Shown piece by piece: positions 11,608 through 36,834 of a stretch of 55,796 nucleotides of DNA; within the stretch, counting starts at the first letter, position 1, and every line of letters begins with the position of its first letter. The DNA comes from Clostridiaceae bacterium (lineage in GTDB: Bacteria > Bacillota > Clostridia > Saccharofermentanales > DTU023): contig JAAZMK010000072.1 in NCBI GenBank assembly GCA_012798865.1, forward strand, positions 1 through 55,796. Reading direction: 5' to 3'. A program made the translations under genes and the position numbers. A model generated the notes under the pieces. That model saw only the letters and a list, made by a program, of their open reading frames with translations, did not search any database and was not told where the DNA came from.

Positions 11608-11642
11608 GCGTTGCGGAAGAAGTAAAAGTAAGGAGGATCACA

Positions 11643-12722: not shown

Positions 12723-12743
12723 AAGTCAAAACATTAAGAAAAG

Positions 12744-12791
12744 AAAGGGGGCGTCCTTTACCGGAGATCGGCGTGCAGGACACCCCTTTTT
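12744..12791. terminator. Terminator between converging operons
   Basis: AAAGGGGGCGTCCT (12744-12757) pairs with AGGACACCCCTT (12777-12788) with one bulge, followed by a T-run on the plus strand and, in reverse, by a shorter T-rich stretch. It closes the plus-strand oxidoreductase operon and can serve the minus-strand transporter operon as well. Confidence 0.8.
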
Positions 12792-12814
12792 GATTGGTCG
12801 AATTATCGTATGAA

Positions 12815-16414: not shown

Positions 16415-16555
16415 GTGTTGACATCCCGTAGATAACATAGTTCTGCAGCGCGACGAAAACCGGATGCTTCCGCATATCGCATGCCCGCGCGCTGCAGAGA
16501 CGTTTCGTTTGTCGGAAGAGCGGAATCAAACCCGACTCTTCCTTTCTCATAAAAC

Positions 16556-16582
16556 CTGACCGGCGGATTTTGCGCCGGTCAG
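16556..16582 (-). terminator. Intercistronic terminator/attenuating hairpin after the binding-protein gene
   Basis: CTGACCGGCG (16556-16565) and CGCCGGTCAG (16573-16582) make a perfect 10-bp stem with a 7-base loop. On the minus strand it is followed by GGTTTTATG. It lies 37 bp after the binding-protein stop codon and before the ATPase gene, so it probably reduces read-through. A second, smaller stem (GGAAGAG/CTCTTCC, about 16514-16542) lies beyond it. Confidence 0.75.
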
Positions 16583-16618
16583 TATTTCATGGGCTAATTC
16601 GCTTTAATGTAAAGCGGC

Positions 16619-17716
16619 TTATTTGAAGTAGGCTTGTGCCACTTCGTCGATGGTCAGCCAATACGTAAGCGCGTCACCGGGCTTCATCGTATTTGCGTAG
16701 TTGAGGAACTCCTCATTTTCGATGTCGTCATAGGTGAAGCTGAGCTTCGAAGGCAGACGGATGGCGTGAATTTCAGGAACAGTGTAAATATTGTCCTTCA
16801 ACTCTTTGCCAAGAAGCATATTCAAACCGAAGTTCAATGCGCTGGCGCCGACACCTGGAGGATTCGAGAGAACCATGAAGTCCATCTTTCTCCCGTCCTT
16901 GTTGATCTCAAGCACGCGCTGCATGAACTCACCTGTGTCATTGAATCCGACGAATTCAGGATACGGTTTGCCCGCCGCATCGTAGGCAGCCAGGATGGCT
17001 TCCGCACACTGCGATGTCAACACAGCGTCAAATTCCAAGCCGGAGTTCAGGATTTCTGTCATGATCTGTTGCGCTTTTACCGCGTCCCAGTCGTGGTTGT
17101 ACTGTCCGCCGACGACAACGAGTCCTTTCTCATCGAAAGCTTTCTCGAAGCCCGCCTGACGGTCAGTGTTGGCCTGGTTGCCGTCAAGTGCCGCGATCAT
17201 GATAATCTTCTTACCCGCGCCGAGGACTTCTCCCGCGTAGGTGCCGGTCTTATAACCGAGGTAGTACTGGTCGGTGCTGACATTCAACACGTTGACGTCG
17301 GTCGAGGTGTACTCGCAGTCCGCGTTGATGTAGACGATGCCGGCTTTCTGTGCTTTCTCGATGATCGGGTCAAGACCTGTCGGAGAGACGGGGTTGACCA
17401 GAATCACGTCGTAGCCTTCATTAATGCTGTTCTCGATTTGCTGCGACTCAGTGGCGGCATCCCAGTTCGAGACGAAAGACGCGTATTTGACGTCCAGTCC
17501 ATGGCTGGCAGCGGCTGCTGCGGCCTCTTGGATGTCTGCCTCATAGCGCACCCGGTAGGGGTTTCCTTCGATAATCGCATTGTGAGAGGCCAGTTTAACT
17601 ACCTTCACATCACCCCCTGGCGGTTCGGTGCCGGTGGTATCGGGATCTTTAGGACCACAAGCAACGGCGACTAGAACCATCATGAGGGCCAAAAGGATCA
17701 CTAGATATTTTTTCAT
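16619..17716 (-). CDS. Sugar-binding lipoprotein of a ribose-type ABC importer
   Basis: A 365-residue extracytoplasmic binding protein (Peripla_BP_4 type). Residues 1-20 are a lipoprotein signal peptide ending in the lipobox LVAVAC, so Cys20 is lipidated and the protein is tethered outside the membrane. The mature part begins with an acidic, low-complexity linker (GPKDPDTTGTEPPGG) and then has the two-lobed fold, with family segments QQIENSINEGYDVILVNPVS and QAGFEKAF. The ATG at 17716 follows AGGAGG by seven bases. It is the first gene of the importer operon and has its own promoter (17801-17830). It delivers the unknown sugar or polyol to the permeases encoded downstream. Confidence 0.93.
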   Translation of the reverse strand: MKKYLVILLALMMVLVAVACGPKDPDTTGTEPPGGDVKVVKLASHNAIIEGNPYRVRYEADIQEAAAAAASHGLDVKYASFVSNWDAATESQQIENSINEGYDVILVNPVSPTGLDPIIEKAQKAGIVYINADCEYTSTDVNVLNVSTDQYYLGYKTGTYAGEVLGAGKKIIMIAALDGNQANTDRQAGFEKAFDEKGLVVVGGQYNHDWDAVKAQQIMTEILNSGLEFDAVLTSQCAEAILAAYDAAGKPYPEFVGFNDTGEFMQRVLEINKDGRKMDFMVLSNPPGVGASALNFGLNMLLGKELKDNIYTVPEIHAIRLPSKLSFTYDDIENEEFLNYANTMKPGDALTYWLTIDEVAQAYFK

Positions 17717-17743
17717 TTCTTTTCCTCCTGTTTTTCTATCATC

Positions 17744-17759
17744 AAGGGGAATTCCCCTT
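17744..17759. promoter_or_regulatory. 16-bp perfect palindrome in the binding-protein mRNA leader
   Basis: AAGGGGAATTCCCCTT lies between the promoter (17801-17830) and the start codon (17716) of the binding-protein gene. It would form a very compact hairpin in the leader, or act as an operator bound by a dimeric repressor just downstream of the transcription start. Confidence 0.45.
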
Positions 17760-17800
17760 AACTAGCATATTGAACAAACGGATTAACGTCGTATGGGAGA

Positions 17801-17830
17801 ATTATACAAATGTCGCACATGCTCGCGCAA
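17801..17830 (-). promoter_or_regulatory. Promoter of the sugar importer operon
   Basis: On the minus strand TTGCGC (17825-17830), an 18-bp spacer and a perfect TATAAT (17801-17806) precede the binding-protein start by about 85 bp. The AT-rich region upstream (17860-17940) holds two direct copies of TTTGCAATT at a 12-bp interval (17916-17936), possibly a regulator site. Confidence 0.7.
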
Positions 17831-17940
17831 CGCTTTCCTTTCAAATGACGATTTCTTTTACAATTTGAAAATTTATTGCTAATAACGCCAATAGAATACC
17901 ATACTAAAGACGTGATTTGCAATTCTTTTTGCAATTTCTT

Positions 17941-18897
17941 TCAAATTGCCATCACATTATCTTCAATCAATGAACGCAAGTACTTCTCAGCGATCCGAAT
18001 TTGGTCTTCAATGAAGTCGTTATAGCCGAGTACGCGACCGTCGTGAAACGGCATATGGCAGAACTCGTAATTAATATAGCCGTCGTACCCCTCTTCTTTC
18101 AGAGCCTTGATAAAAGCGGGATAATTTGTAAGTACGGGCTGAATATGCGGGTCGAACGAGATCATGCGAATATCGCCGTTTGCCTCTTCTACGAACTCGC
18201 CGTTGGCGTGTGACAGCACCTGTCGTTTGCCGACGTCTTTGACAGCCTGCGCCACATAGGCATCGCTTTGACGTTCTTCCGTCCAGCCGAGACAGGGTGC
18301 GTCAAGGCAGCACTGCACCCATGGCGAATCGACCCATCGTACAAAGTCGAGCATGTCACGATAATCCTCAATAATGGGGTGATGATTTTGGAGAGCAAGC
18401 ACGACGCCGGCGTCTTCTGCCCATACCGCACATTCTTTGAGACATTCGACGATGTTTTGACGCAATTCGTAATCGAGGGCGCCATAGTAGGTATGATACG
18501 CTTCAGGAACCTCGTACGTCGCAATGCCGTTTCTCATGACGACACCGCGCCACGCCGCGAACACGCGCAGTACAGGCGCGCCAAGTTGGCGCGCGACACG
18601 AATCTGCTCGCGGACCATGAGAAGTTCATTTTCAATGTGTTCAGGCACCACCGAAGCGAAATTGTTGTTCGCCGCGACGGCGGCGATCTCAAGACCCTTG
18701 CTTTCGGCGTAGGTCTTGATTTCAAGACAGCGCCGCTCATCAAGATCCAAAGGTGAGCCATGCGGGCGTTTCAGGTCAAGTTCTACACCGTCGTAACCGA
18801 ATTTCGCAGCCGTATCGATAAACTCTTCAACTGTTAAGGGCGGTCTGTCATTGAACCAGACGCCCGAACAGGAGATCGAGTATAATCCGACTTTCAT
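17941..18897 (-). CDS. Sugar phosphate isomerase/epimerase-like TIM barrel (3)
   Basis: A 318-residue member of the AP-endonuclease 2-like TIM-barrel family. Candidate metal-site strands read ALQNHHP, CLDAPC, LSHANGE and INYEFC. The start is set at the ATG at 18897, seven bases after GGAGG. The frame stays open 27 bases further but without a ribosome site. It lies 23 bases after the stop of the divergent-family oxidoreductase gene upstream, forming a two-gene minus-strand operon. This repeats the oxidoreductase-isomerase pairing of the plus-strand operon, so the pair may act on the same or a related imported compound. The reaction is unknown. Confidence 0.86.
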   Translation of the reverse strand: MKVGLYSISCSGVWFNDRPPLTVEEFIDTAAKFGYDGVELDLKRPHGSPLDLDERRCLEIKTYAESKGLEIAAVAANNNFASVVPEHIENELLMVREQIRVARQLGAPVLRVFAAWRGVVMRNGIATYEVPEAYHTYYGALDYELRQNIVECLKECAVWAEDAGVVLALQNHHPIIEDYRDMLDFVRWVDSPWVQCCLDAPCLGWTEERQSDAYVAQAVKDVGKRQVLSHANGEFVEEANGDIRMISFDPHIQPVLTNYPAFIKALKEEGYDGYINYEFCHMPFHDGRVLGYNDFIEDQIRIAEKYLRSLIEDNVMAI

Positions 18898-18920
18898 ATG
18901 TTTACCTCCATTTGTTAGTG

Positions 18921-20048
18921 TCACTTGCCGACAATCTCATCGGCAAAAACTTCGCGTCCAAGCTCGGCGGAACGATAAAAGCCGTCAATGATTGCGGTGA
19001 CATTCAGCGTTTCCTCGGGTTGAACCATGAGAGGCGTCCCTTTTTGCAAGTGATCGACCGCATTTTCCATCAGGAAAAAGTGACCGGGGAAGACTTCGTT
19101 CGCATAAGGTCTCTCTTCAGAAAATACGCGCGGTCGGACATCAGCCTGATAACGACCCATCGATGTCAGTAATGTCATCTCGGGGAGCACGAGACCGCCC
19201 AGACTGCCCGCAAAGGTCATGCCGTATTCGTTCGGGAGGTTGATCGCCCAAGATGTCTTGAAATGAATGGATGCGCCGTTGTCGAGGCGAATCATGCCGG
19301 CGGCGAATTCGTCCACATCGAATTCTTTCGCTGAATAAGGCGGCATGTTCGGTACGCCGGCAGGTGCGCCGGATTCCGGCACGCTCGTGAGAATCTCCTC
19401 GCCGCTCCGGGCGATGACCGAAGACGTTACGCCCGACACAGAAGTGAATTTTGGACCGCCCATAACCCAAAGAGCGGCGTCGACAAGATGCACACCGAGG
19501 TCACAGAATACGCCGCCGCCGTTCGTTTCTTTCTTATGGAAAGCGCCCCACTTTGGAATGCCGCGACGACGGATCAGCACCGACTCGCTGAAATAGATAT
19601 CGCCTAGTCGTCCTTCGTGAGCCCATTCGTGCGCGAGTTGGTATTCGGTGTTGTAACGCAGTACCTGACAAGCAAACAACACCAAGCCTCGCTCGCGTGC
19701 GTATGCGTACAATTCACGCGTGTCGTCGTAGTTTAACGCGACGGGCTTTTCGCAGGCGACATGCGCGCCGTGCCTCATCGCCAACATCGCCATCGCCTTA
19801 TGGCTGGCGTTTGACGTACACACGGAGACGATATCCGGTTTTTCCTTGATAAGCATGTCCTCGGCTTCGGTATACCAGCGCGGAATAGAAAAACGCTCAG
19901 CCGTTTCGCGCGCGGAATCCGCTCTTAGATCTGAAACGGCACATAAATGCACGCGTTCACCCAAATTGAGATAAGCCGGGATATGCGCCGTATTGGCGAT
20001 CATGCCGCATCCGATGATCGCAACCTTTAGACGACTGTTAGTATCCAT
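18921..20048 (-). CDS. Gfo/Idh/MocA family oxidoreductase (3)
   Basis: A 375-residue dehydrogenase with the Rossmann motif IIGCGMIANTAH, the ACEKP motif and an intact C-terminal signature CDLGVHLVD. The cytoplasmic enzyme should oxidise or reduce a hydroxyl/keto group of a sugar or polyol with NAD(P). The ATG at 20048 is preceded by GGTGGTGG. It is the first gene of the pair with the TIM-barrel protein downstream. A possible promoter (20082-20087 with TATAAA on the minus strand) is overlapped by direct repeats of CGTGACG. Confidence 0.87.
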   Translation of the reverse strand: MDTNSRLKVAIIGCGMIANTAHIPAYLNLGERVHLCAVSDLRADSARETAERFSIPRWYTEAEDMLIKEKPDIVSVCTSNASHKAMAMLAMRHGAHVACEKPVALNYDDTRELYAYARERGLVLFACQVLRYNTEYQLAHEWAHEGRLGDIYFSESVLIRRRGIPKWGAFHKKETNGGGVFCDLGVHLVDAALWVMGGPKFTSVSGVTSSVIARSGEEILTSVPESGAPAGVPNMPPYSAKEFDVDEFAAGMIRLDNGASIHFKTSWAINLPNEYGMTFAGSLGGLVLPEMTLLTSMGRYQADVRPRVFSEERPYANEVFPGHFFLMENAVDHLQKGTPLMVQPEETLNVTAIIDGFYRSAELGREVFADEIVGK

Positions 20049-24905: not shown

Positions 24906-25232
24906 TTATGTGTTTTGTGATGCTTCTGTGAACAGGATACGCAGATAGTCTCTGCGACCGTATAGTATCCGGTCGATGAAAACGTCTTTATCGACTACTC
25001 GGTAAAATACAAGATAGTTGCCGCTGACAAGATAACGGTATTCGCTGTTGACCTTAGCGATAGCGGAAAAAGGCGCGCCAATCAGCGCGTGTTCACGCAG
25101 TCTGCGGATGGTTTTTGTGATTTTTGCAACTGTGGAGAGCGCAGCCTGCGGGTTTTCCAAAATTTTTTCAATATAGTCTTTGATTTCATAGAGATCTTTC
25201 TCCGCGTTTGGAGATAGATGCAGGTTATTCAT
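24906..25232 (-). CDS. RelE/ParE family toxin
   Basis: A 108-residue protein with the compact alpha-beta toxin fold. It opens NLHLSPNAEKDLYEIKDYI, has the central RRLREHALIGAP and the C-terminal strands YRYLVSGNYLVFYRVVD and RILYGRRDYLRILF, all typical of the ParE/RelE superfamily. Such toxins either inhibit gyrase (ParE) or cleave ribosome-bound mRNA (RelE). Sequence alone does not decide which. Its ATG overlaps the antitoxin gene by 8 bp, so the toxin is translated after the antitoxin. The pair sits alone between two unrelated operons. Confidence 0.88.
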   Translation of the reverse strand: MNNLHLSPNAEKDLYEIKDYIEKILENPQAALSTVAKITKTIRRLREHALIGAPFSAIAKVNSEYRYLVSGNYLVFYRVVDKDVFIDRILYGRRDYLRILFTEASQNT

Positions 25233-25479
25233 GCACGATTCCGAGATGTTCTTCTACGGCCTCCAAAGTCAACCATCCTTTTTCCTCGCCGGATGTACGC
25301 CCTTTGACAAGTTCGTTCATCAGTGTAATGATTGCCTGCGTCTTTTCGTAGTCATGTATATCTACAATGGCGTATCTGCCTCGTCCATTCTTCGTTAGAA
25401 AGACGGGAGCGCCGACATCTACTTCGCGCAGCACCTCAGAATAATTGCGGAGATCGGAAATAGGTTTAATGTTTGGCAT
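25225..25479 (-). CDS. Phd/YefM family antitoxin
   Basis: An 84-residue antitoxin. The N-terminal half IKPISDLRNYSEVLREV, followed by VFLTKNGRGRYAIVDIHDYE, is the DNA-binding Phd/YefM fold. The C-terminal 35 residues are charged and would wrap the toxin. The ATG at 25479 is chosen because AAAGGAG lies nine bases upstream. The longer frame, open to 25551, would run through the promoter and operator. It neutralises the overlapping toxin and, with it, represses its own promoter. Confidence 0.88.
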   Translation of the reverse strand: MPNIKPISDLRNYSEVLREVDVGAPVFLTKNGRGRYAIVDIHDYEKTQAIITLMNELVKGRTSGEEKGWLTLEAVEEHLGIVHE

Positions 25480-25501
25480 AATTCTCAACTCCTTTATGTG
25501 T

Positions 25502-25549
25502 AGTATAGGTCGGTTTGCTGTGAAATTCAACTGCGAATTTACAGCAAAC
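25502..25549 (-). promoter_or_regulatory. Toxin-antitoxin promoter and overlapping operator
   Basis: Minus-strand TTGAAT (25525-25530), 17-bp spacer, TATACT (25502-25507). A near-perfect inverted repeat, GTTTGCTGTGAAATTC (25513-25528) against GAATTTACAGCAAAC (25535-25549), covers the spacer and -35 box. This is the expected layout for autorepression by a Phd/YefM-type antitoxin. Confidence 0.75.
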
Positions 25550-25603
25550 ACGCACGCGTTTTATATTTGTGTTCATATAGCGGATTAAAGTATGAAACTT
25601 AAT

Positions 25604-26563
25604 CTAAGGAGAAAATAGAAACGCCCTCGCCTTGCCCCGCAGCAAAATAGATTCCTGTGAGGCGAGAAAGGCTGTCTGCCCCGGTGTGAGCAGGAGTTCG
25701 TCTTCTCCTGTTTGTCTGCTTTGAGGGCGCCACGAAACGGCACGGCACTGACCTTTAACGAGGAATAGTCCGGCGAATTGTCGTCTCGGCACATCCACGA
25801 CGCCTTCGCCGTTCAGTGTGAGTTCTTCCATGGCAAATTGGTCGCAACAGACTATCATGCGACGCGTCAGACCTTTTATCGTCCTCGGCTGTCCAAGACC
25901 GGGAATCTCTCGCGGCGTGGGCGTAAGAGTCGCGACGTCAAGTGCCTCTTGTAAATGGAGCCTCCGCGGCTTTCCCGCATGGTCGCGTCGATCATAGTCG
26001 AAAACGCGGTACGTCACGTTTGAGCTCTGTTGCAGCTCAAAACAGAGAATGCCTCCGCCGAGAGCATGCAGAGTGCCTGCTGGAATAAAAAAAACGTCGC
26101 CTGCATGGACGGGCACCTTTCGGAGTACCGATTCAATCGTGCCTTCTCGCACATGCTGTTCCAATTCCGTTCGCGTCAATGATTTACGAAGACCATGGTA
26201 AATCCAAGCATCGGGATCCGCGTCGAGAATATACCAGCATTCTGTTTTTCCCGATAATTCGCCATGGCGGCGCGCACTGTCCTCGTCGGGATGGACTTGT
26301 ACGGAGAGCGGCAAGCGCGCGTCGATTAGTTTCGCCAAAATCGGAATCGTGCCGTCCTGATGTGCCGAACCGCCCGCCAACCACGGCTCCATTGACAGAC
26401 GATCCTGAAGGGTACGCCCGTCGGAAAGGCGTGAATGACCGTCCGCGTGAGTGGAAAGCTCCCAGCTCTCGGCGAGCCGTTCTCCCGAACCCTTGCGATA
26501 TCGCTCAAAGAGCCGGAAGCCGCCCCAAATCGCGTCTTTAAGAGAGGGTCGCAAAGATAGCAT
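25604..26563 (-). CDS. manA: Class I mannose-6-phosphate isomerase-like protein
   Basis: A 319-residue cupin-fold isomerase. It starts LRPSLKDAIWGG and has the zinc-site motifs QVHPDE and KTECWYIL and the later FIPAGTLHALGGG, all typical of type I phosphomannose isomerases of Firmicutes. The family interconverts mannose-6-phosphate and fructose-6-phosphate, but members in catabolic operons may act on other sugar phosphates. It is the last gene of the NanE-glycyl radical enzyme operon, starting one base after the activating-enzyme stop. A small hairpin GATTAA/TTAATC overlaps its stop. Its inclusion suggests that the pathway ends in, or passes through, a hexose-6-phosphate. Confidence 0.88.
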   Translation of the reverse strand: MLSLRPSLKDAIWGGFRLFERYRKGSGERLAESWELSTHADGHSRLSDGRTLQDRLSMEPWLAGGSAHQDGTIPILAKLIDARLPLSVQVHPDEDSARRHGELSGKTECWYILDADPDAWIYHGLRKSLTRTELEQHVREGTIESVLRKVPVHAGDVFFIPAGTLHALGGGILCFELQQSSNVTYRVFDYDRRDHAGKPRRLHLQEALDVATLTPTPREIPGLGQPRTIKGLTRRMIVCCDQFAMEELTLNGEGVVDVPRRQFAGLFLVKGQCRAVSWRPQSRQTGEDELLLTPGQTAFLASQESILLRGKARAFLFSP

Positions 26564-26564: not shown

Positions 26565-27470
26565 TCAGCCTCCGATCCGAATGTCCAGCCCCATCCGGCG
26601 ACCGAGAGCCGCCGCCTCGCTCATATCTTCCGGTGTCAGGGTCTTCAGGTGCTCCAGCGTATACGGCTGACCAAGCTTCGCATACTTGGCGCGTCCAAGT
26701 TGGTGGAATGGCAGCAATACATACGTTGTCACACCCAACGCAAGGGCAAGGTGAAAGATGCTCCGCAATGTAGGAAGGTCGTCGTTGTACCCGGGGATGA
26801 CCGCGGTGCGAAGCGTCACGTTGGCGCCGTCATCCATTAACTTGCCGATATTCGAAGTGACAAGATCAAGGTCGGCGCCCGTTTCGCGCAAAAGAACGTC
26901 GCGATCCGAGTGTTTCAAATCGATGTAAAAAAAGTCAACGTACGGCAACACGCTTTCCAACACTTTGTAGGAAAGTGCTGCCGTCGTTTCCACGCATGTT
27001 GTAAGACCCGCCTGTTTCGCTTGGGAAAGCAACACCTCCACCCCTTGCTGACAAAAGGGCTCTCCCCCCGAAAGTGTCAGACCGCCGCCCGTCGCGCGAT
27101 AATAATCGGCATCTTTCATCACGACGGCGAGAATCTCTTCGGACGACATAATCTCTGAGGAAAGGGAATACGCCCCACCGGGACAGACCGGTACACAGCG
27201 CCCGCACGAAATACATCGCGAGCGATCCACATGGAGTCGTCCTTCACGTAAGGAAAGCGCCTGTTGGGGGCAATGCGGCACACAGTTACCGCAAGCGACA
27301 CATCGCCTGCCATCGTGCAAGAGGACGGGGCGAAAAGGTTGCGTTTCGGGATTGCAACACCAAGCGCAGTGCAAAGGGCACCCTTGGAAAAAGACGACCG
27401 TGCGCAGTCCCGGACCGTCATGATAGGCGCCGCGTTCAATGCTGGTGACAAAAAACTTGGGATTATCCAT
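26565..27470 (-). CDS. Glycyl radical enzyme activating enzyme (radical SAM)
   Basis: A 301-residue radical S-adenosylmethionine protein. Cys31, Cys35 and Cys38 form the CxxxCxxC motif (GCPLHCAWC) that binds the catalytic [4Fe-4S] cluster. A ferredoxin-like insert carries two more cluster motifs: Cys57/60/63/67 and Cys86/89/92/96. That insert is absent from classical PflA and present in activators of eliminase and decarboxylase glycyl radical enzymes. GGGLTLSGGEPFCQ is the SAM-binding glycine-rich stretch. The protein abstracts a hydrogen from the glycine of its partner, here the enzyme encoded immediately upstream with an 8-bp overlap. It requires anaerobic conditions. Confidence 0.93.
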   Translation of the reverse strand: MDNPKFFVTSIERGAYHDGPGLRTVVFFQGCPLHCAWCCNPETQPFRPVLLHDGRRCVACGNCVPHCPQQALSLREGRLHVDRSRCISCGRCVPVCPGGAYSLSSEIMSSEEILAVVMKDADYYRATGGGLTLSGGEPFCQQGVEVLLSQAKQAGLTTCVETTAALSYKVLESVLPYVDFFYIDLKHSDRDVLLRETGADLDLVTSNIGKLMDDGANVTLRTAVIPGYNDDLPTLRSIFHLALALGVTTYVLLPFHQLGRAKYAKLGQPYTLEHLKTLTPEDMSEAAALGRRMGLDIRIGG

Positions 27471-29739
27471 AGAGCACTCGACTCATCAGCTCTTCCTGGA
27501 TATCAGTTTCGAGGTTGACGAACACCGCTGAGAACCCCGATACGCGGACAAGCAGATCGCGGTAAGCATCGGGATTCTTCACCGCTTTCTCAAGTTCCCC
27601 TCGATTCACGATCGTGACCATTAACTGGCATCCGCCGCGGTCGAAATAGACGCGGAACATTTTCTTGACCAAATCGCGGTGACCGTTGAAAAAATCAGGT
27701 GTGAACTTGATGTTCTGGAGACTGCCGCCGTGAAGTCCCGCATCAAAACGCGTCAGAGAATTGAGCATGGCGGTGGGACCGCTCGTGTTGGCGCCTCCTT
27801 GCGGATTGTTCGCGGGATTCATAAACTGCCCTTTTCTGCGTCCATCGTAGGATGCCGCCGTGCGCCGTCCCCACTCAGTATTCAACTGGTTATTGCTGAT
27901 GACGATCAGAAAATACGTCATGCCCGCGTTGATGCCTCGATCGCGAATGCCGTTTGCGACAAATTCAAATACTTCGTTTGCCATGGTGTCGGCTTCGTCG
28001 TTGTCGTTCCCGTATTTCGGCGCTTCCCAGAGATGTCGGCGAAGCAGCATGTTGCCGTCAAAATCGCGGTTGACAGCGTCTCGCAACGCCGAAAGTGTGA
28101 CCCGTTGATCTTCGAACACAACCTTTTTTATCGCCGTGAGGGAGTCAGACACGTTGATGTTGCCGTACGTTTCAACTGTTCCGCCCAGATACCTGATACC
28201 CCCGTCCAACACGGCTTTGCCGCGTTCAATGCAATCGTCCATCAAGATGCTTGTGAATAGGAATGAGACTTCCTGATTCATAACCTCGTAGGAGAGCAAT
28301 TGACTTTCAATCGAGAGATCAAAGTAATGGTCGAGGAGTCTCTTGTATTGAGAAAACAGCACATCGAAAGACCCAATCTCTTCCGCGGGAAGAAGCGGTA
28401 CACCGTCGCTTTTGTCGATGCCGTCCATCGGATCGACGCCGTTATTCAGCGCTATTTGAAGTATTTTTAATAGATTGATGCAAATATTCGGCGTGCCGAC
28501 GCTCTGTCCCTGAATGACAAATTCTCCGCACCCGAACGGCACGTACTGTTCCGCCGTTTTTTCATCGACACGCATCGCGCGCATGACGGCGGGGACATGG
28601 ACATCGTCGTTGTAAAGTGTCGGGTACGTCGCTCCGCTTCCGATCGCGTCAAGTGCGGCGTCGATGATGTCTTCAGGCGTTTCCCGATCGAACCGCAATG
28701 TGAATTGCGGCTCGACATACCGGCATGAATGAGCGACATCCATCGCGATTCTAGTGAAGATGTCGGCAGATTCAGGATCTCGGCGACCTCGACCGCCTAC
28801 GATAATGCGACCGTTCACCGTCGTGCGGCGGTTTTCGATCATCGTCCAAAGCGATTGAAGGAGAGAGAAAGCCTCGTCTTCCGTAAGACGCCCCATACGC
28901 AAATCGCGCGCGAGAAATGGACCGAGGACATCGTCCATGCGACCGTAATTGATAACGCCGGCGAGGAGCGCATAAAGCCAAAAGAGTTGTAAGGCTTCCA
29001 CGAAGGTTTCCGGTCGATCGTTTCGAATATGAAGGAGTGCCGCCTCCATGCGCAGAAGTTCTTCCCGCCGCTTAGGCGTCGAGCCCTCCATGGCGGTGCG
29101 GGTCTTGTCGGCGAGGTGGTCGCAGCACGAAGAGAATAAATCCAAGGAAGCCAGGGACGCCCGGTAAAAGTCGTTGTCTTCCAGTTTTTCTTGTTGTTCG
29201 CGAATGCGTTTTCGAAGACCGTCGATACCGAGTTCCATGAGCATGTGGTAATTGAGCATCATGCCGGAGAGCCGTGCCGTCACGATAAGAGGGTACTCAC
29301 AATCGATGAACATGCCGACTACGTCATCCTTTAAGGCCTGTCTGCAATACTTCGTTTTCAGATCGTGTTCAAGCCAGTAATCGTAAAGCGCATCGACGCG
29401 TTCGTGTTCGTCAGGGGGGAGGAGATCTTTAAAAGCGGTCAGCTTGTTAAACACGCAATAGTGACCTACGCCGCCGATGGAGGTCACGCAGCCGAAACCG
29501 ATCGGCAGAAAATCCAGTCTGCCCGCAAAGAGATCGTCAGGTTCAATTGAGCGAAAAAGCGCCGGATACAGGACGCGAAGACAGGCGATCTCTCGTTCCT
29601 CTCGCGATTTTCCCTCGTAGGCGCGATGTGTTGCCGTATAGCGCTCCATGAGCTCCAGTTGATCCATCGGCGACATTTCCGGAGGTATTTTGATGGAAAC
29701 AGCGACATTTTGCGGAGTTTCAACGCTGAACTTCGGCAT
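27463..29739 (-). CDS. Glycyl radical enzyme of unknown substrate (PFL family)
   Basis: A 758-residue enzyme with a PFL-like barrel (about 40-640) and a C-terminal glycine-radical domain. Gly735 in RVSGFSAVF is the radical site. Cys404 in VPFGCGEF is the thiyl position, and Glu406 gives the C-x-E pattern of eliminase-type enzymes rather than the CC pair of pyruvate formate-lyase. The start is the ATG at 29739, nine bases after AAAGGAG and overlapping the NanE stop (TGATG). The frame stays open 45 codons upstream but within nanE. It is encoded between NanE and its activator, with a ROK kinase and an aldolase in the adjacent unit. A phosphorylated sugar or anhydro-sugar is therefore a reasonable guess for its substrate; the reaction is not known. 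Confidence 0.92.
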   Translation of the reverse strand: MPKFSVETPQNVAVSIKIPPEMSPMDQLELMERYTATHRAYEGKSREEREIACLRVLYPALFRSIEPDDLFAGRLDFLPIGFGCVTSIGGVGHYCVFNKLTAFKDLLPPDEHERVDALYDYWLEHDLKTKYCRQALKDDVVGMFIDCEYPLIVTARLSGMMLNYHMLMELGIDGLRKRIREQQEKLEDNDFYRASLASLDLFSSCCDHLADKTRTAMEGSTPKRREELLRMEAALLHIRNDRPETFVEALQLFWLYALLAGVINYGRMDDVLGPFLARDLRMGRLTEDEAFSLLQSLWTMIENRRTTVNGRIIVGGRGRRDPESADIFTRIAMDVAHSCRYVEPQFTLRFDRETPEDIIDAALDAIGSGATYPTLYNDDVHVPAVMRAMRVDEKTAEQYVPFGCGEFVIQGQSVGTPNICINLLKILQIALNNGVDPMDGIDKSDGVPLLPAEEIGSFDVLFSQYKRLLDHYFDLSIESQLLSYEVMNQEVSFLFTSILMDDCIERGKAVLDGGIRYLGGTVETYGNINVSDSLTAIKKVVFEDQRVTLSALRDAVNRDFDGNMLLRRHLWEAPKYGNDNDEADTMANEVFEFVANGIRDRGINAGMTYFLIVISNNQLNTEWGRRTAASYDGRRKGQFMNPANNPQGGANTSGPTAMLNSLTRFDAGLHGGSLQNIKFTPDFFNGHRDLVKKMFRVYFDRGGCQLMVTIVNRGELEKAVKNPDAYRDLLVRVSGFSAVFVNLETDIQEELMSRVLYG

Positions 29740-30488
29740 CAGTGCGCACTCCTTTCCGCATCGCGCCAGTTCGTTCGGAAACCGTTCATCAAATCGGTAA
29801 ACCGTTTCGCCGTAAGATGCGGTCTCGTAATGGCGCTTCCTACGACCACGGCGTGCGCGCCTAGATAGAGGCACTTGATCGCGTCTTCAGGCGTGTAGAC
29901 ATGTCCCTCCATAATCATGTACGTGTCATCGCCGAAATCTCGACACATGCGGGCGAACTCGCGTGCGTTAAAGTGCTCGATATCCCACGTCTCTTGGGTA
30001 TAACCGTAAAGAGTGGGCGCCACCATGTCGGCACCCAGTTCGATCGCGCGCGCCGCCTCTTCGTAATTTGAAATGTCCGCGAAAAAAATGGCATCCGGAA
30101 ACGCCTTGATTGCCTTGGGCAATAGTTCCCAAGCGGGACGTCCCTCCGCCGTAAGCTGATCGGTGCAGTCAAGTGCGATGATTTCCGCTCCAGCCTCGTA
30201 GACTTCGCGTACGGCGTCAAACGTGGGCGTAATAAAGACGTTGGATCCCTCATGCCACTGTTTGTAAAGACCGATCACGGGAAGATCGACGGCAGCCTTG
30301 ATGTCGCGAATCTGGCTTGGCGAGTTCGCACGGATGCCTACCGCGCCGCCCCACGCCGCAGCCTCCGCCATCTTGACATGCATATCCGGCGTGCTGATCG
30401 GATCGTCGTCCTGTACTTGACAGGACACAATGAGACCGTTTTTTAGCGATTCGATTAACGCTCTCTTTCGCGGATCATTCGTTTTCAT
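29739..30488 (-). CDS. nanE: N-acetylmannosamine-6-phosphate 2-epimerase-like (NanE)
   Basis: A 249-residue TIM-barrel protein with clear NanE signatures: LIVSCQVQ near the N-terminus, AAWGGAVGIRANSP, GLYKQW (catalytic Lys region), ITPTFDAV, IIALDCT and FADISNYEEA. The family converts ManNAc-6-P to GlcNAc-6-P. The ATG at 30488 follows AGGAG. It is the first gene of a four-gene unit with the glycyl radical enzyme, its activator and ManA, and has its own promoter (30521-30549). With nagA 5 kb away and a ROK kinase in the neighbouring unit it could serve ManNAc use. No NanA lyase or NagB deaminase is present in the window. Activity on another 2-epimeric sugar phosphate is possible. Confidence 0.88.
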   Translation of the reverse strand: MKTNDPRKRALIESLKNGLIVSCQVQDDDPISTPDMHVKMAEAAAWGGAVGIRANSPSQIRDIKAAVDLPVIGLYKQWHEGSNVFITPTFDAVREVYEAGAEIIALDCTDQLTAEGRPAWELLPKAIKAFPDAIFFADISNYEEAARAIELGADMVAPTLYGYTQETWDIEHFNAREFARMCRDFGDDTYMIMEGHVYTPEDAIKCLYLGAHAVVVGSAITRPHLTAKRFTDLMNGFRTNWRDAERSAH

Positions 30489-30520: not shown

Positions 30521-30564
30521 AGTGTAGTACTTTGTGTTTGCAAAGTCAATCATTTATTTGCAAA
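30521..30564 (-). promoter_or_regulatory. Promoter of the nanE-glycyl radical enzyme operon with paired TTTGCAAA sites
   Basis: Minus-strand TTGACT (30544-30549), 17-bp spacer, TACACT (30521-30526). Two identical 8-bp palindromes TTTGCAAA (30537-30544 and 30557-30564) lie exactly 20 bp apart, about two helical turns, on either side of the -35 box. This suits a dimeric repressor, and the DeoR-family gene ends just upstream. Confidence 0.65.
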
Positions 30565-30659
30565 AACGCGCAAATATTAAACGCGGTGTTGTGATTGTCC
30601 TACACCACTGTGAAAGTGTTTTAGTGCGTTATGCTTAAGAAAGCGTCACAAATCAGATG

Positions 30660-31427
30660 TCATGTCTTTTCTTCAACGAACACGACGTTTGACGGGAATT
30701 CTTCTTCCGGCGGCGGTCCGTCAAGATAAACAGTTGTAAATGAATCTAAGCCTGCAATTCTACAAAGACCTACTTTAGACAGTTTGGAGCGATCGGCAAG
30801 AAGATATGCATCGGTGGCATTTTGAAGCGCGATCTGTTTGATGGCGGTCACGTCCATATCGGTTGCATAAACGGTGTTATTGTGGATATCAAGCCCCATA
30901 CAGCCGATGAAAGCATGATGCAAACCGAATTTTTTCAGTGCACACTCCGCGAGGGATCCGACAATCATTTGATCGGCGGGCATGTATCGACCGCCCACGA
31001 CGAAAACTTCCGCTCGCGCATTCGGTTTCATTTGACGCAAAACCATCGTATTGCATGTTACGATACGAATCGGCATGGCGAGCAGTATCGGCGCCAACGG
31101 TGCGATACTCGTACCCATATCCAGGAAAACACATTCACCGGGTTGTACAACCTCCGCAGCGGCACGGGCGACCATTTGTTTGGCTTCCGTATTCACCGTG
31201 TGCTTTGACTGCATCGACAGTTCTACCTGATAGTTATTCTCGAGATCTTCCTCCGAGCGAATGGCGCCGCCTTGTACGCGTCGAAGAGATCCTTGATTTT
31301 CAAGTTTTATGAAATCACGGCGAACGGTCGCTTCCGACACGTCAAGTTCGCGGGCGATGCTCTTGTAATCGATAATGCCCAACTCGTTCAGTCTTTTGAT
31401 GATGTAGAGTCGTCTCGCGGATGCAAT
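30660..31427 (-). CDS. DeoR family transcriptional regulator
   Basis: A 255-residue repressor. The N-terminal helix-turn-helix (about 3-55) reads ARRLYIIKRLNELG, then IARELDVSEATVRRDFIKLE with the DeoR signature. The C-terminal sugar-phosphate-sensing domain (about 75-240) has VFLDMGTSIAPL, VTCNTMVLRQM and HHAFIGCMGLD. DeoR regulators usually respond to a phosphorylated intermediate of the pathway they control. The ATG at 31427 has GAGG nine bases upstream; an earlier in-frame TTG (31445) overlaps that site. It is the last gene of the deoC-to-ROK unit, and the paired TTTGCAAA sites just downstream are its likely targets. Confidence 0.9.
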   Translation of the reverse strand: MASARRLYIIKRLNELGIIDYKSIARELDVSEATVRRDFIKLENQGSLRRVQGGAIRSEEDLENNYQVELSMQSKHTVNTEAKQMVARAAAEVVQPGECVFLDMGTSIAPLAPILLAMPIRIVTCNTMVLRQMKPNARAEVFVVGGRYMPADQMIVGSLAECALKKFGLHHAFIGCMGLDIHNNTVYATDMDVTAIKQIALQNATDAYLLADRSKLSKVGLCRIAGLDSFTTVYLDGPPPEEEFPSNVVFVEEKT

Positions 31428-31450
31428 CATGTTTATTTTCCTCAATATTT

Positions 31451-32395
31451 CTATATATCGCCTAGATAAGCCGCGCCAATCGTGCCCGCCGCATTGCCCA
31501 ATGCGGCTTTCTCGATGGGCGGCGCCCCGATGATGTCGTGGGCAAAGACGAATTGTTCGACTTTCTTGCGAACCGGCTCCAAAAGCGTGTCGCCTGCTCC
31601 CGACAACCCGCCTCCTAACAGCACAATTTCCGGACGGAATATATTGATGAAGCCACCGATTCCTGCTGCAAGATAGGTGCAGTATTGATCGACGACTCGC
31701 ATAGCGACGACATCGCCTTTACGTGCACAATCGAAAGCCGTGCGACCTGAGACGCCGCCATGTGCCGCGGCGTGCGCGTGCATCCGCGATTCGGGGTTTT
31801 TCGACATGGCTTCTTCCGTCTGACGGATCAGCGCCGTCACGGACGCGTAGGCTTCGAGGCATCCATCGATGCCACACGTACACGGTTCTCCTTCTGCGAC
31901 AAGAGGTGTGTGACCGAGTTCCGCACCCATACCGTCACCTCCGCTGAAAAGACGTCCGTTAATGATCAAGCCGCCGCCTACGCCTGTGCCCAACGTCAGC
32001 ATCAGTACATGGCGATAACCTTTCGCCGCGCCGGCGAGCATCTCTCCGACGACGGCGCAGTTGGCGTCGTTTTCGATAAAGACCGGCACGGGGATATGTT
32101 TCTCAAGTTCTTGCTTCAGCGGCATGTTCCGCCAATTTGTATTATTTGAAAAAACGAGAAGTCCCGTGTAGGGATTGATACAGCTGGGCGAACCGACGCC
32201 GACCGAAGGGAAGTCTTCCAAGCGTAGTCCTGCTTTCTCTGCCGCTATGCGCGCCGTTTCCGCCATATCGGCAACGACAAGCTCGAATCCTTCCACTGTC
32301 GGCTGCTGATGGCTGCAAATGACTTGATACGTTTCATCCACGATACCGACCTTGATGGCGGTGCCGCCTAGATCAATTCCGATCCGATACTGCAT
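31451..32395 (-). CDS. ROK family sugar kinase
   Basis: A 314-residue kinase with the ROK fold. It has the N-terminal phosphate motif IGIDLGGTAIKVG, the substrate motif ENDANC with the catalytic Asp, TLGTGVGGG, GAELGHT and the zinc motif CTCGIDGCLEAYAS. EAYAS is common in glucokinase-like members, while NanK-type enzymes share the same zinc motif. Candidate substrates are glucose, ManNAc, GlcNAc or an anhydro-hexitol. Its stop lies 23 bases before the DeoR regulator. A kinase here would supply the phosphorylated substrate for NanE, ManA or the glycyl radical enzyme. Confidence 0.9.
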   Translation of the reverse strand: MQYRIGIDLGGTAIKVGIVDETYQVICSHQQPTVEGFELVVADMAETARIAAEKAGLRLEDFPSVGVGSPSCINPYTGLLVFSNNTNWRNMPLKQELEKHIPVPVFIENDANCAVVGEMLAGAAKGYRHVLMLTLGTGVGGGLIINGRLFSGGDGMGAELGHTPLVAEGEPCTCGIDGCLEAYASVTALIRQTEEAMSKNPESRMHAHAAAHGGVSGRTAFDCARKGDVVAMRVVDQYCTYLAAGIGGFINIFRPEIVLLGGGLSGAGDTLLEPVRKKVEQFVFAHDIIGAPPIEKAALGNAAGTIGAAYLGDI

Positions 32396-32483: not shown

Positions 32484-33386
32484 CTACACACCGACGCGTT
32501 TCAACGTATCGACGATGAAACGTTTGGCTCGGTCGATATCCCCCTCATCCAAGTGCTCGATGATGAGCGGGATGTTGGGATTTTTTTCGGCAAGGCGCTT
32601 CACGTATAAATCGTAGTTAAGAATGCCCAGTCCGGCGGCTGGCAGCTCAACGGCGCCTGATCCGCGGAATGTGTGTGATGCGTCCGCATCGATATCGGCA
32701 TGTTTTTCGCCTAAATCCTCCGTCAGATTGATATCTTTGGCGTGGGCGATGACCATGTGGTCGCTTAAGCGGTCGAAGATATGGTTTAAAGTACCATCGA
32801 TATCTTTGATCGTGTTTTCGTCAAAATAGTTCGTCGGATCGCAAATGAGTCCGAGATGATCGCATCCCACTTCTTTGAACATCCGCTCGACCTGTTCGAC
32901 CGAGCCGATCACGTTATTGACGTAATTTTCGACGATGAATGTCGCGCCCCACTCTTTTGCGTACGCGACCAGATCTCGAATAATCTCAATGGTTTCTTCA
33001 AATACTTCGGGGCTTGCATTTTTGTCATGCCATACCCAATCGCTTTCTCGATTGTACGTGCCGGTTTCGCTGGCGACATAAGGACATCCGAGGTCGCGGG
33101 CGTAGCGCATCATCATCTTGAGGTAATCGATATTCTTCTTGCGGACATCCGGATCGGGATGAATGAAATTTGTGTAAGCGGATACCGCGACGATGGGAAG
33201 GTCGGCTTCTCGGAAAGCGTCACGTATTTCATTCGCCTTCTTTTTTGTGAGCGGCTCCTTTGCCGCATCGAAATCCTTAAACGTGACGTCCAGCTGGACA
33301 CAATTGAAGCCGGACGCTTTGATGCGGCGAATGACCTCCGCCATTGTGTAAGGATAGTACCCGGTAAAAATGCCAATGCTAATCAT
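32484..33386 (-). CDS. Sugar phosphate isomerase/epimerase-like TIM barrel (4)
   Basis: A 300-residue member of the AP-endonuclease 2-like family. Metal-site segments are FIVENYVNN, LICDPTNY, IAHAKDINL and IIEHLDEGD. It starts MISIGIFTGYYPYTMAEVI, and its last strand and helix match the sugar isomerase subgroup. The ATG at 33386 is 19 bases after the oxidoreductase stop. This is the fourth oxidoreductase/TIM-barrel pairing in the window and suggests a two-step conversion of a keto-sugar. The substrate is unknown. Confidence 0.86.
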   Translation of the reverse strand: MISIGIFTGYYPYTMAEVIRRIKASGFNCVQLDVTFKDFDAAKEPLTKKKANEIRDAFREADLPIVAVSAYTNFIHPDPDVRKKNIDYLKMMMRYARDLGCPYVASETGTYNRESDWVWHDKNASPEVFEETIEIIRDLVAYAKEWGATFIVENYVNNVIGSVEQVERMFKEVGCDHLGLICDPTNYFDENTIKDIDGTLNHIFDRLSDHMVIAHAKDINLTEDLGEKHADIDADASHTFRGSGAVELPAAGLGILNYDLYVKRLAEKNPNIPLIIEHLDEGDIDRAKRFIVDTLKRVGV

Positions 33387-33405: not shown

Positions 33406-34509
33406 TTAAAAACCGAACTCGTCAAAGCGTACCGTTCGTTTCTCTTCAATGGATCGGTAGCATCCTTCCACGCACGCGATGGTCCGAACATTGTCGCGTG
33501 CGGAGATCTCTGGCTCATCATCCTGTTCAACGGCTCTGAGAAGGCTCGTCATCGTGCCTTCGAAGGCATCGGGAAACCAGACCGTATCCCAGACTGGGGC
33601 GATCCATTGGTGCGGATAATGTTTAGACGTGAATTGCAATGTTGACGGAGCGCGCATAGGGTAATCAGGCCAACCGATCGTGCCTTTGACCATGCCGTCC
33701 ATTCCCTCGACACGCCATTTTATGTAAATATCCTTTTCGCACGGTTCTTCCGGCCATGCCCACACGTCGTCAAGTGACGTCGCCAATAGATCGCTCGGAT
33801 ACTTGAACGTGAATTGCGTTATGCCGTCTACGTGCGGGAAACGAGTTCTCGGATCAGGGCGGCAAACACAAGTAATCTCTTCGGGATCGCCAAATAGGAA
33901 ACGAAATATGTCAACGTGGTGGATGCCCATGCTGAAGATTTCCAGTCGGTCATACTCCTCTAAAAAGGGTTGCCAGTGCGGGATCGCACGCATTTCAATC
34001 GTGGCGAGCACAGGCTCGCCGAGAATGCCTTCGTCGAGCAAATACTTTAGAGCGCGCATCGACTGATCACAGCGCATATTGGAATTGACGGCAATTTTCT
34101 TGTCACTTTCGTCGCCAAGACTCGCAATCTCTTTTGCATCTTCCAACGTCATCGCAACCGGTTTCTGACAAAGGATGCCCTTGATGTGGTCGCGTTTCAC
34201 CGCCTCGCGGACGATGTCAAGCTGTTGATCAGGCGGGTAGGCGATATCAAGTATCTCAATCGACTCGTCATCCAATAGCTCTCGCCATGTGTCGTACACA
34301 TTCGGGATCGCATGACGTTGGGCGACTGTCTCGGCGTGTGACGGCGTGCGCGACGCGATCGCCGCCGGTTGAAGCCCCGCATTGCGATATGCGACGAGAT
34401 GACAGTCCGCCATGATGAAACCGGCGCCGATACAACCGATCCGCCAGTCCTTTCTTTGAGGCGGTTCATATCGAGTCGCCTCAACCAACCGTTGCTCAAT
34501 AACGTTCAT
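33406..34509 (-). CDS. Gfo/Idh/MocA family oxidoreductase (4), atypical
   Basis: A 367-residue member with a 20-residue N-terminal extension before the Rossmann motif IGCIGAGFIMADCH. The usual EKP reads CQKPVAM. The C-terminal DxGxHxxD reads FSMGIHHVD, so its first Asp is Ser. The Lys of the EKP motif is kept. These changes occur in some branches of the family and may indicate a different substrate or direction. The ATG at 34509 has AAAGGAG upstream. It lies between deoC and the TIM-barrel isomerase. 1,5-anhydrofructose reductase of Sinorhizobium belongs to this family, so a reductase role in an anhydro-sugar route is conceivable. Confidence 0.84.
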   Translation of the reverse strand: MNVIEQRLVEATRYEPPQRKDWRIGCIGAGFIMADCHLVAYRNAGLQPAAIASRTPSHAETVAQRHAIPNVYDTWRELLDDESIEILDIAYPPDQQLDIVREAVKRDHIKGILCQKPVAMTLEDAKEIASLGDESDKKIAVNSNMRCDQSMRALKYLLDEGILGEPVLATIEMRAIPHWQPFLEEYDRLEIFSMGIHHVDIFRFLFGDPEEITCVCRPDPRTRFPHVDGITQFTFKYPSDLLATSLDDVWAWPEEPCEKDIYIKWRVEGMDGMVKGTIGWPDYPMRAPSTLQFTSKHYPHQWIAPVWDTVWFPDAFEGTMTSLLRAVEQDDEPEISARDNVRTIACVEGCYRSIEEKRTVRFDEFGF

Positions 34510-34548: not shown

Positions 34549-35307
34549 TTATTTCGCCTCTCGCGCGGCGATTACGGAGGCAAGCTCCGTATTATCGGTG
34601 ATTTTGGGAAGAACCAATGTGCCTTCCGCCTCTCTTCGGTACGCGTCGTTCATAATCGTCTCGGTTCGTGTGCAGCCGAATCGCGATACGCCGACGGCAC
34701 AGACGATCAGTGCGTCGTCGAGAGTTCGTACGCCGCCGGCAGCTTTGACACGCATGGAAGACGGCGTATTGGCGCGCATCAGTTTCAGATCATGGACGGT
34801 CGCGCCGCCGGGCGCATAGCCGGTCGACGTCTTCGTAAAATCGGCACCGACGTCTGTACAAATACGGCATGCCAACAGTTTTTGCTCGTCAGTCAAATAG
34901 GCGTTCTCAAAAATAACCTTGACCAAAGCATCGGAAGCGTGTGCGGCGTCCACAACGGCACGCAAATCCTTACGCACATAGTCTAAGTTGTCGGAAAGAA
35001 GCCGTCCGATGTTCAAGACGACATCGACTTCCACACAGCCGTCATCGATGGCTTTTTGCGTCTCAAAGACTTTCGTCTCCGTATCGTTGGATCCGTGAGG
35101 AAAACCGACCACTGTCGTCAATTTAACGTCACTTCCCTTGAGGATATTCGCGGCGAATCGGACATCCGCCGGGCGAAGACAAACGGATACGCAACGATAC
35201 GTCATAGCCGTTTCGCATCCTTTTTCGATCGTATCCAATGTAAACGTCGGGTTGAGTAAAGAGACATCAATCATGTCGGCGATTTCTTGCGCAGTTACTT
35301 TATTCAT
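34549..35307 (-). CDS. deoC: Deoxyribose-phosphate aldolase (DeoC) family
   Basis: A 252-residue class I aldolase. The catalytic set is visible: Asp95 in VEVDVV, Lys130 in VKVIFE, the Schiff-base Lys159 in FTKTSTGY and Lys188 in VKAAGGVRT. The family cleaves 2-deoxyribose-5-phosphate to glyceraldehyde-3-phosphate and acetaldehyde. No nucleoside genes (deoA, deoB, deoD) are nearby. Here it heads an operon with an oxidoreductase, isomerase, ROK kinase and DeoR regulator, so it may cleave a different deoxy-sugar phosphate. The ATG at 35307 is preceded by GAGG; a promoter lies at 35525-35553, leaving a leader of about 210 bases. Confidence 0.92.
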   Translation of the reverse strand: MNKVTAQEIADMIDVSLLNPTFTLDTIEKGCETAMTYRCVSVCLRPADVRFAANILKGSDVKLTTVVGFPHGSNDTETKVFETQKAIDDGCVEVDVVLNIGRLLSDNLDYVRKDLRAVVDAAHASDALVKVIFENAYLTDEQKLLACRICTDVGADFTKTSTGYAPGGATVHDLKLMRANTPSSMRVKAAGGVRTLDDALIVCAVGVSRFGCTRTETIMNDAYRREAEGTLVLPKITDNTELASVIAAREAK

Positions 35308-35712: not shown

Positions 35713-36834
35713 ATGACGGTCTTATCGAATCTCAGACTCTTTGACGGTACGCGTTTTCTTGATGAGACGGCGATCTCTTTTGACAACGGTACGATCACGG
35801 CGCTCGGCACTATGACGGACGGCATCGATATGGGCGGACGTCTGCTCTCTCCCGGATTGATCGATCTTCATATGCACGGTCAAATGGGCGAAGATAACAT
35901 GCGTCCGGGCGGGACGACGCGCATCGCGACCACACAGCCGCAATTCGGCGTCACATCCTTTTGCCCGACCTCCGTCACCGATTCGGACGAGCAAACACGC
36001 GTTTTTCTGGAAAATGTACGCCAAGCGATGGAATCAGCGCAGGGCGCGCGCGTCTTGGGCGCATATTTGGAAGGACCTTATCTCGATCATGATTTACGCG
36101 GTGTCCACGACGAGCGCTTCCTGAAGGAGCCGTCCGTTTCCGATTACCGCGCGCTCGTTGAAGGTTACGAAGACCTGATCGTTCGCGTTACGCTCGCACC
36201 TGAAAAAAATGGCGGTATGGAGTTGGTGCGTTTTCTTGCCGATCAGGGAATTACCGTGTCGATCGGACACTCGGCTGCCACTGCCGACGAAACGGCGGAG
36301 GCTGTCAGGCTCGGCGTGAGTACGACGACACACACATTTAACGCCATGCCCGCGCTCCATCACCGACAGCCCGGCGTTCTCGGTGTCGCTCTGACCCATC
36401 CCGATCTCAAAGCGGAATTCGTCGCGGATATGGTTCATATACATCCTCTTATCGTGAAACTGATCTACCTTGCCAAGGGTGCGGAAGGTTGTTTCTACTG
36501 TACGGATTCCATGGAAGCAGCCGGAATGCGGGACGGCATTTACCGCCTTGGCAATGGGGCGGTCTCCGTGCAAGACGGCATCGCGCGGAAAGGTGAACGG
36601 TTGGCGGGAAGCACGCTCACAATGGATCGGGGTCTTCGTCTTCTTGTCGAAGAGGCGGACATTCCCCTGCATGACGCGCTGCGCATGGGAACTCGCAACC
36701 CCGCTGACGTCATCGGTCGCCCCGATCTCGGACGCCTTGTTCCCGGTGCCAAAGCTGATTTCGTACTTTGGGATGATGCGCTTCATGTCGAGGCTACGTA
36801 TATTGAAGGTCGCTGTTTCTATCGTGCCGACTGA
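35713..36834 (+). CDS. nagA: N-acetylglucosamine-6-phosphate deacetylase
   Basis: A 373-residue amidohydrolase. Visible motifs are DLHMHG (metal site and fold start), YLEGPY, the metal-binding histidines in GHSAAT and THTFNAM, and the catalytic Asp in CTDSMEAAG. These are diagnostic for NagA, which removes acetate from GlcNAc-6-P to give glucosamine-6-P for glycolysis or wall synthesis. The ATG at 35713 has GGAAGGGAAG upstream. It is divergent from the deoC operon and shares a 405-bp control region with it. Downstream NagB is not in the window. Together with NanE it supports amino-sugar use by this locus. Confidence 0.94.
   Translation: MTVLSNLRLFDGTRFLDETAISFDNGTITALGTMTDGIDMGGRLLSPGLIDLHMHGQMGEDNMRPGGTTRIATTQPQFGVTSFCPTSVTDSDEQTRVFLENVRQAMESAQGARVLGAYLEGPYLDHDLRGVHDERFLKEPSVSDYRALVEGYEDLIVRVTLAPEKNGGMELVRFLADQGITVSIGHSAATADETAEAVRLGVSTTTHTFNAMPALHHRQPGVLGVALTHPDLKAEFVADMVHIHPLIVKLIYLAKGAEGCFYCTDSMEAAGMRDGIYRLGNGAVSVQDGIARKGERLAGSTLTMDRGLRLLVEEADIPLHDALRMGTRNPADVIGRPDLGRLVPGAKADFVLWDDALHVEATYIEGRCFYRAD

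Follow-up and report, generated by a model that had tools for sequence, protein, structure and literature searches.

A family of glycyl radical enzymes that travels with a NanE-type epimerase in gut anaerobes and may act on a phosphorylated sugar

The gut is rich in glycyl radical enzymes (GREs) whose function is unknown (PMC11574389). In Escherichia coli, the GREs YbiW and PflD are 1,5-anhydroglucitol-6-phosphate (AG6P)/1,5-anhydromannitol-6-phosphate (AM6P) lyases (PMC12441222); radical chemistry on a sugar phosphate thus has a precedent. Each GRE solved so far, whether for choline, hydroxyproline, isethionate or anhydroglucitol, uncovered an unsuspected anaerobic pathway. Here we analysed a stretch of 55,796 nucleotides from a Clostridiaceae bacterium (the window), whose minus strand carries a GRE of 758 aa (27466-29739), a radical-SAM activase (26565-27470) and a NanE-type protein of 249 aa (29739-30488) from the N-acetylmannosamine-6-phosphate (ManNAc-6-P) 2-epimerase family. 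A first-pass annotation of this DNA had placed known eliminases only with microcompartment or amino-acid genes, which does not hold for YbiW and PflD. It had also proposed a new radical step in sugar-phosphate metabolism; the newness of such a step as such falls with the same two enzymes, while the position of the GRE outside the known families stood. The family described below and its link to NanE suggest that a phosphorylated sugar, probably an amino sugar, is broken down through a radical step not described before.

To place the window GRE, we compared it with domain and family models. The PFL-like domain (405.9 bits) and the Gly_radical domain (76.5 bits) both scored above cut-off, and the family-conserved ATG start gives 758 residues, the 803-aa frame with a GTG start being merely the longest open reading frame. 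Cys404 and Gly735 are invariant in the family of which this GRE is the founding sequence, and the annotated length, Cys404-x-Glu406 and Gly735 were borne out by the sequence and the Pfam domains. The active site Cys404-Gly405-Glu406 carries the Cys-x-Glu eliminase motif, as annotated, with the Glu present in at least 90% of 44 GREs; by this motif the window GRE is of the eliminase type, and 1,2-elimination activity is predicted. The results showed that no NCBIfam GRE equivalog reached its cut-off for the window GRE, the nearest subfamily model giving 333 bits against 678. The scores were 229 against 1109 for the YbiW/PflD model NF007437, 223.7 against 1050 for the choline TMA-lyase CutC model TIGR04394, 283.5 against 1100 for the trans-4-hydroxyproline dehydratase (HypD) model NF043068, and 235.7 and 222.5 against 1000 for the sulfopropanediol dehydratase models NF048009 and NF048011.

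Relatives in the PDB share about 23-26% identity with the window GRE, and in the genome collection 29 loci lie at 38-96% identity while the next best reach at most 31%. A maximum-likelihood tree, built by a quick method and containing long branches, separated all family members from YbiW, PflD-type enzymes, HypD and 21 other GREs on a branch with full (100) support. The AlphaFold model (pLDDT 91.9, pTM 0.92) has the GRE fold. In Foldseek it was about equally similar to glycerol dehydratase, YbiW, HypD, PflD and CutC (TM 0.82-0.86, identity 21-24%), and VIA-align gave Z 37-42 and rmsd 2.2-3.0 over about 700-725 residues for most of these GRE structures; all GRE types scored nearly equal, and rows with Z within 1 are tied. 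On profile scores and tree, we assign the window GRE to a previously unassigned family outside every characterised GRE family. Membership in any characterised family was rejected, since the NCBIfam cut-offs were missed and the tree separates the groups, and the clustering with choline, glycerol, hydroxyproline or isethionate-type enzymes that would have spoken against the annotation did not appear. HypD shares the eliminase core at about 25% identity, but the window GRE falls far below the HypD cut-off and has no proC neighbour. About one sixth of the Erysipelotrichales sampled carry the family, which also occurs in Enterococcus, Lachnospiraceae, Parabacteroides and others. Searches of the open-access literature found no paper joining a GRE with ManNAc-6-P, nor a GRE with anhydroglucitol, and a search for GRE papers since 2024 led nowhere. 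In one genome (G563), the family GRE stands in tandem as three full copies, one of which contains an in-frame stop, next to a fourth, partial GRE open frame (L150:1-9000); a further full copy lies on a different contig (L151).

We next compared the distribution of the GRE with that of its NanE partner, here called linked NanE. Across 244 Erysipelotrichales genomes, the GRE was found in 39, linked NanE in 38 and both in 36; linked NanE was present in 36 of the 39 GRE-positive genomes versus 2 of the 205 GRE-negative ones (Fisher P = 4e-37, uncorrected for kinship). The oxygen-sensitive radical enzyme travels with a NanE relative in many gut anaerobes, and the co-occurrence in related genomes proved real, the absence feared in the annotation not having appeared. 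Nearly all near-clade loci with enough flank carry NanE beside or near the GRE, and in three others (L009, L010, L017) linked NanE is present on a separate contig from the GRE. The pair is retained though often far apart on the chromosome (e.g. G603, G491, G410), which plain linkage would not account for. Nor is the association due to chance, as these genes are found together again in dozens of genomes. Among the GRE-only genomes, the family GRE of G414 is interrupted by a stop codon, the locus contig of G068 (L020) ends at the regulator, where nanE sits in relatives, and G387 is a true exception. In G560, one of the two NanE-only genomes, the terminal part of a family GRE is present where a contig breaks off (L178). 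The split GRE of G414 (G414:C63) lies in a genome that also has no linked NanE, as if the pair had decayed together. Since GRE genes are mobile and the host metagenome-assembled genome is fragmented, a known GRE activity might merely have been located by nanE; the scores far under every characterised GRE family, and a strict co-occurrence that persists even when the genes are unlinked, contradict this explanation and make it very improbable. The constant NanE partner names a substrate class to test for the family GRE.

The window NanE scored 227 bits against a cut-off of 189 for NF002231 and 154.6 against 27 for PF04131. Like canonical NanE, the linked copy lies above the family cut-off and keeps the six catalytic residues: Q11, R40, K63, D124, E180 and R208 are conserved in every aligned linked copy, the acetamide-contacting Y149 is kept as well, and all seven are residues shown to act on ManNAc-6-P (PMC8482478). 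Unlike canonical NanE, it has altered pocket neighbours (KR to K[IQV] followed by W, TTL to PTL, AEG[NK] to MEGH) and a conserved C-terminal NWRxAERSKH tail. The NanE signature x-P-x-I-G-I-x-K-[basic] (PMC8482478) is broken in the window, which reads LPVIGLYKQ (Ile to Leu, basic to Gln), and the signature V-G-[SG]-A-x-T-R is present as VVGSAITR. Members of the linked group share 57-97% identity; the values are 45-55% for the subtypes of L148, L149, L157, L176 and L152/L154, and only 38-44% between linked and canonical NanE of the same genomes. By these comparisons, linked NanE is classed as a paralog of its own. Because the catalytic residues are kept, its likely chemistry is C2 epimerisation of an open-chain aldose 6-phosphate; the substrate may differ from ManNAc-6-P, as one signature motif is broken and a C-terminal tail is conserved, and we describe the window protein as a NanE-type epimerase while asserting no activity on ManNAc-6-P itself. 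Several family genomes additionally keep a canonical NanE, and simple sialic-acid catabolism was rejected on that ground.

On this basis we tentatively favour a pathway in which a dedicated C2 epimerase, linked NanE, and an eliminase-type GRE subfamily act in series in the anaerobic catabolism of a 6-phosphorylated, C2-substituted aldohexose. The sugar, most likely of the N-acetylhexosamine (HexNAc) class, would be imported and phosphorylated by a mannose-family phosphotransferase system (PTS) or by an ABC importer with a ROK kinase, giving a 6-phosphorylated aldohexose with a C2 substituent whose C2 epimers linked NanE would interconvert. The activase would install a radical on Gly735, which would pass to Cys404; Cys404 would abstract a hydrogen from the carbon beside the leaving group and Glu406 would take a proton, so that a C-O or C-N bond breaks through 1,2-elimination. 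The deoxy-carbonyl sugar phosphate would then be reduced and/or cleaved by Gfo/Idh or RmlD-like reductases and DeoC aldolase and enter glycolysis. A phosphosugar substrate for the GRE is strongly indicated and the HexNAc class moderately so; NanE acting before the GRE, the particular bond that breaks and a role for DeoC are weakly indicated. The conserved NanE residues, an AgaW-like transporter and NagA/NagB neighbours make N-acetylhexosamine-6-phosphate the best class, and the DeoC neighbours hint at a 2-deoxy product, while the absence of the transaldolase/FSA aldolase argues against 1-deoxyfructose-6-phosphate. In a doubtful, more specific form, NanE would first epimerise C2, the GRE would then break the C2-N bond in the 6-phosphate of an N-acetylhexosamine (or of a hexosamine), and the deoxy product would be reduced and cleaved by DeoC; if true, gut anaerobes would gain an oxygen-sensitive alternative to NagA/NagB.

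Several observations weigh against the favoured pathway. GlcNAc-6-phosphate (GlcNAc-6-P) is already dealt with by canonical NagA/NagB, and NagB is present in most family genomes; why an N-acetylhexosamine should require a radical step is therefore not obvious. A distant clade of the same GRE family lacks any NanE, Vibrio having only a canonical-like copy. In about 12 distinct genomes DeoC lies next to the GRE or to linked NanE, against a chance expectation, by our own estimate, of about one such adjacency among about 50 genomes; since DeoC is multi-copy, with about three copies per family genome, this adjacency is weaker evidence than it appears. DeoC is found in 46 of 47 family genomes and NagB above cut-off in 41 of 47, and their presence, being near-universal, does not choose between routes. 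The host genome (1.56 Mb, 93.5% complete) has a single GRE, a single NanE and one NagB on a different contig. That the linked NanE is the sole NanE of this genome, with NagA next door and NagB elsewhere, and that NagB occurs in the majority of family genomes would suit the reverse order, in which the GRE acts on a phosphorylated amino-sugar derivative to release an aldose phosphate of the ManNAc-6-P type, NanE converts it to GlcNAc-6-P and NagA/NagB finish the route. However, no plausible precursor yields a 2-acetamido aldose through GRE elimination, the second NanE would be redundant in family genomes that keep a canonical one, and NagB was not found in G066, G473 and G511; we regard this order as improbable.

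To identify features of the GRE active site that are specific to the family, we compared segments between invariant landmarks with those of 24 other GREs. The results showed that loop 1 has 15 residues in the family versus 21-23 in all 24 others, and loop 2 has 17 versus 29-32, shortenings of at least 6 and 12 residues. These loops map to the glycerol dehydratase loops bearing the active-site residues H281/S282 and Y339. The active-site residue H164 of glycerol dehydratase, a His in 22 of the 24 other GREs, corresponds to Gly159 in the window GRE, three residues behind Arg156, which is invariant in the family; other family-specific invariants include R74, F82, N264, R311, R319, N616, N617, N644, H670 and Q675. 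The shorter loop set suggests a roomier pocket. The B12-independent glycerol/propanediol dehydratases (1r8w, 5i2g, 9rco) share the catalytic Cys, Glu and Gly with the window GRE, and 1r8w is its best solved match by sequence, but besides the His164 difference and the absence of the H281/S282 and Y339 loops, their Asp447 is replaced by Asn418. No microcompartment genes were seen in the flanks examined. Glycerol dehydratase being the top-scoring solved relative by sequence and by Foldseek, one might suppose that a sugar phosphate is reduced at C1 and that the GRE then removes the C2 substituent of the alditol phosphate, giving a 2-deoxyaldose phosphate that DeoC splits into acetaldehyde and a shorter aldose phosphate; the recurrence of DeoC and of Gfo/Idh or RmlD-like reductases with linked NanE would fit. 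The deletion of the H281/S282 loop, the Gly at the H164 position and the minimal operons, which have no reductase or aldolase, leave us with little belief in such a route.

The window GRE shares with YbiW and PflD the GRE fold, the Cys-x-Glu motif, an activase of its own and a sugar-phosphate setting with PTS genes in some loci, but identity is only about 25%, the clades are separate and the two loops are shorter in the window family; the partner is FSA there, whereas here it is NanE (with DeoC in some loci). No transaldolase/FSA (TAL_FSA) was found in the host genome, an absence that is not absolute at 93.5% completeness, and the AG6P/AM6P pathway was rejected for this reason. A ring-opening lyase of the YbiW/PflD kind might still cleave a C-O bond of another anhydrohexitol- or anhydro-amino-sugar-6-phosphate, with NanE and an aldolase acting on the product. 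YbiW and PflD are PTS-fed sugar-phosphate GREs (PMC12441222; PDB 8id7/8id0), and one Erysipelotrichales genome (L012) has a PflD-type and a family GRE separated by about 5 kb. In the distant clade, a PhyH-family (Fe/2-oxoglutarate) dioxygenase lies near the GRE where NanE would stand, adjacent in L101 (11215-14196), at about 1 kb in L022 (8095-12268) and at about 9 kb in L023 (880-12265). This resembles E. coli (L102), where ybiU, of the DUF1479 oxygenase family, is near ybiW, and it would fit an aerobic/anaerobic pair on one ether; by analogy, the distant-clade PhyH and GRE possibly form such a pair on one substrate. On the other side, the family is separated from the YbiW/PflD types with full support and is no nearer to them than to other eliminases, it has lost the loop that contains ESN in YbiW/PflD, the host genome has no transaldolase/FSA, and a NanE-type epimerase requires a free aldehyde, which an anhydrohexitol does not have. 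We consider this ring-opening chemistry rather unlikely.

Within L012 (15366-20766), the PflD-type GRE is accompanied by an activase, FSA and a canonical NanE, a group situated about 3-8 kb away from the NanE-linked GRE; in L174, likewise, FSA and a PflD-type GRE lie beside DeoC-RmlD-ManA-NanE. In L172 (6160-15001) and L171, a linked-type NanE stands between HPS/PHI genes and a corrinoid methyltransferase set (corrinoid protein, MtaA/UroD-like protein, corrinoid activator), followed by DeoC and a YbiW-like GRE; this gene set hints at a methylated sugar pathway.

We then examined the gene neighbourhood. In the window, the order on the minus strand is nanE, GRE, activase and a ManA-type gene (25604-26563, class I mannose-6-phosphate isomerase), with ends that overlap or almost touch. 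In line with the annotated coupling of the GRE to the NanE-type gene, the nanE stop overlaps the GRE start in TGATG; the activase start overlaps the GRE stop. The two-cluster ferredoxin insert of the activase was likewise recovered, with a radical-SAM domain and two Fer4 matches (TIGR02494, 275 bits against 174). The ManA-type protein barely passes TIGR00218 (116.7 bits against 116.2), and ManA was found at about 10 of roughly 60 loci, indicating that the conserved unit is nanE-GRE-activase. Accordingly, the first three genes of the annotated nanE-GRE-activase-manA operon held in other genomes, ManA as a core member did not, and a conserved four-gene operon was rejected, ManA being an optional member. 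Minimal operons (L148, L157) consist of PTS IIA-IIB-IIC-IID-NanE-GRE-activase with a mannose-family PTS, and for the IIC of both L148 and L006 the best-scoring model is AgaW, the IIC of the GalNAc PTS, at a score below cut-off. Where NanE is distant from the GRE, it is often beside DeoC, an RmlD-like reductase and ManA (L168, L174, L177). NagA lies near the GRE in the window, L004, L152 and L154; L118 and L119 have a NagB-like gene ahead of NanE. In L118 (3255-9900), Gfo/Idh, TIM-barrel, ROK, DeoR, a second Gfo/Idh, a NagB-like deaminase and linked NanE follow an ABC sugar importer, the GRE being on another contig.

Upstream of nanE, on the minus strand, a sigma70-like promoter (TTGACT-17-TACACT, 30521-30549) lies in a promoter region (30521-30567) with two operator-like TTTGCAAA sites (30537-30544 and 30557-30564) spaced 20 bp. 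The promoter with paired repressor-like sites that had been annotated is thereby confirmed; promoter and both TTTGCAAA sites are identical in the relative L004, whose proteins are 96% identical, and are recognisable only in part in L002. Further along the minus strand lie a DeoR-family regulator (30660-31445), which recurs at NanE/GRE loci, and a glucokinase-like ROK-family sugar kinase (31451-32395; 250.9 bits, just below the TIGR00744 cut-off), which adjoins NanE/GRE in several other genomes. They are followed, also on the minus strand, by a xylose-isomerase-like TIM-barrel protein (AP_endonuc_2, 32484-33386) and a Gfo/Idh/MocA oxidoreductase (33406-34509), both partners in ABC-fed loci, and by a protein of the deoxyribose-phosphate aldolase family, DeoC (34549-35307; 226 bits against 117), a recurrent neighbour of linked NanE/GRE. 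NagA, GlcNAc-6-P deacetylase, is divergent on the plus strand (35713-36834; 268.5 bits against 225.65).

Elsewhere in the window (8638-20048), three more Gfo/Idh and three more TIM-barrel (AP_endonuc_2) genes surround a sugar-binding protein, an ABC ATPase and two permeases, a set that may provide import and the first steps for the pathway to which the GRE belongs. Directly behind the ManA gene (24906-25551) are two overlapping 108-aa genes that by eye resemble a Phd/YefM antitoxin and a RelE/ParE toxin.

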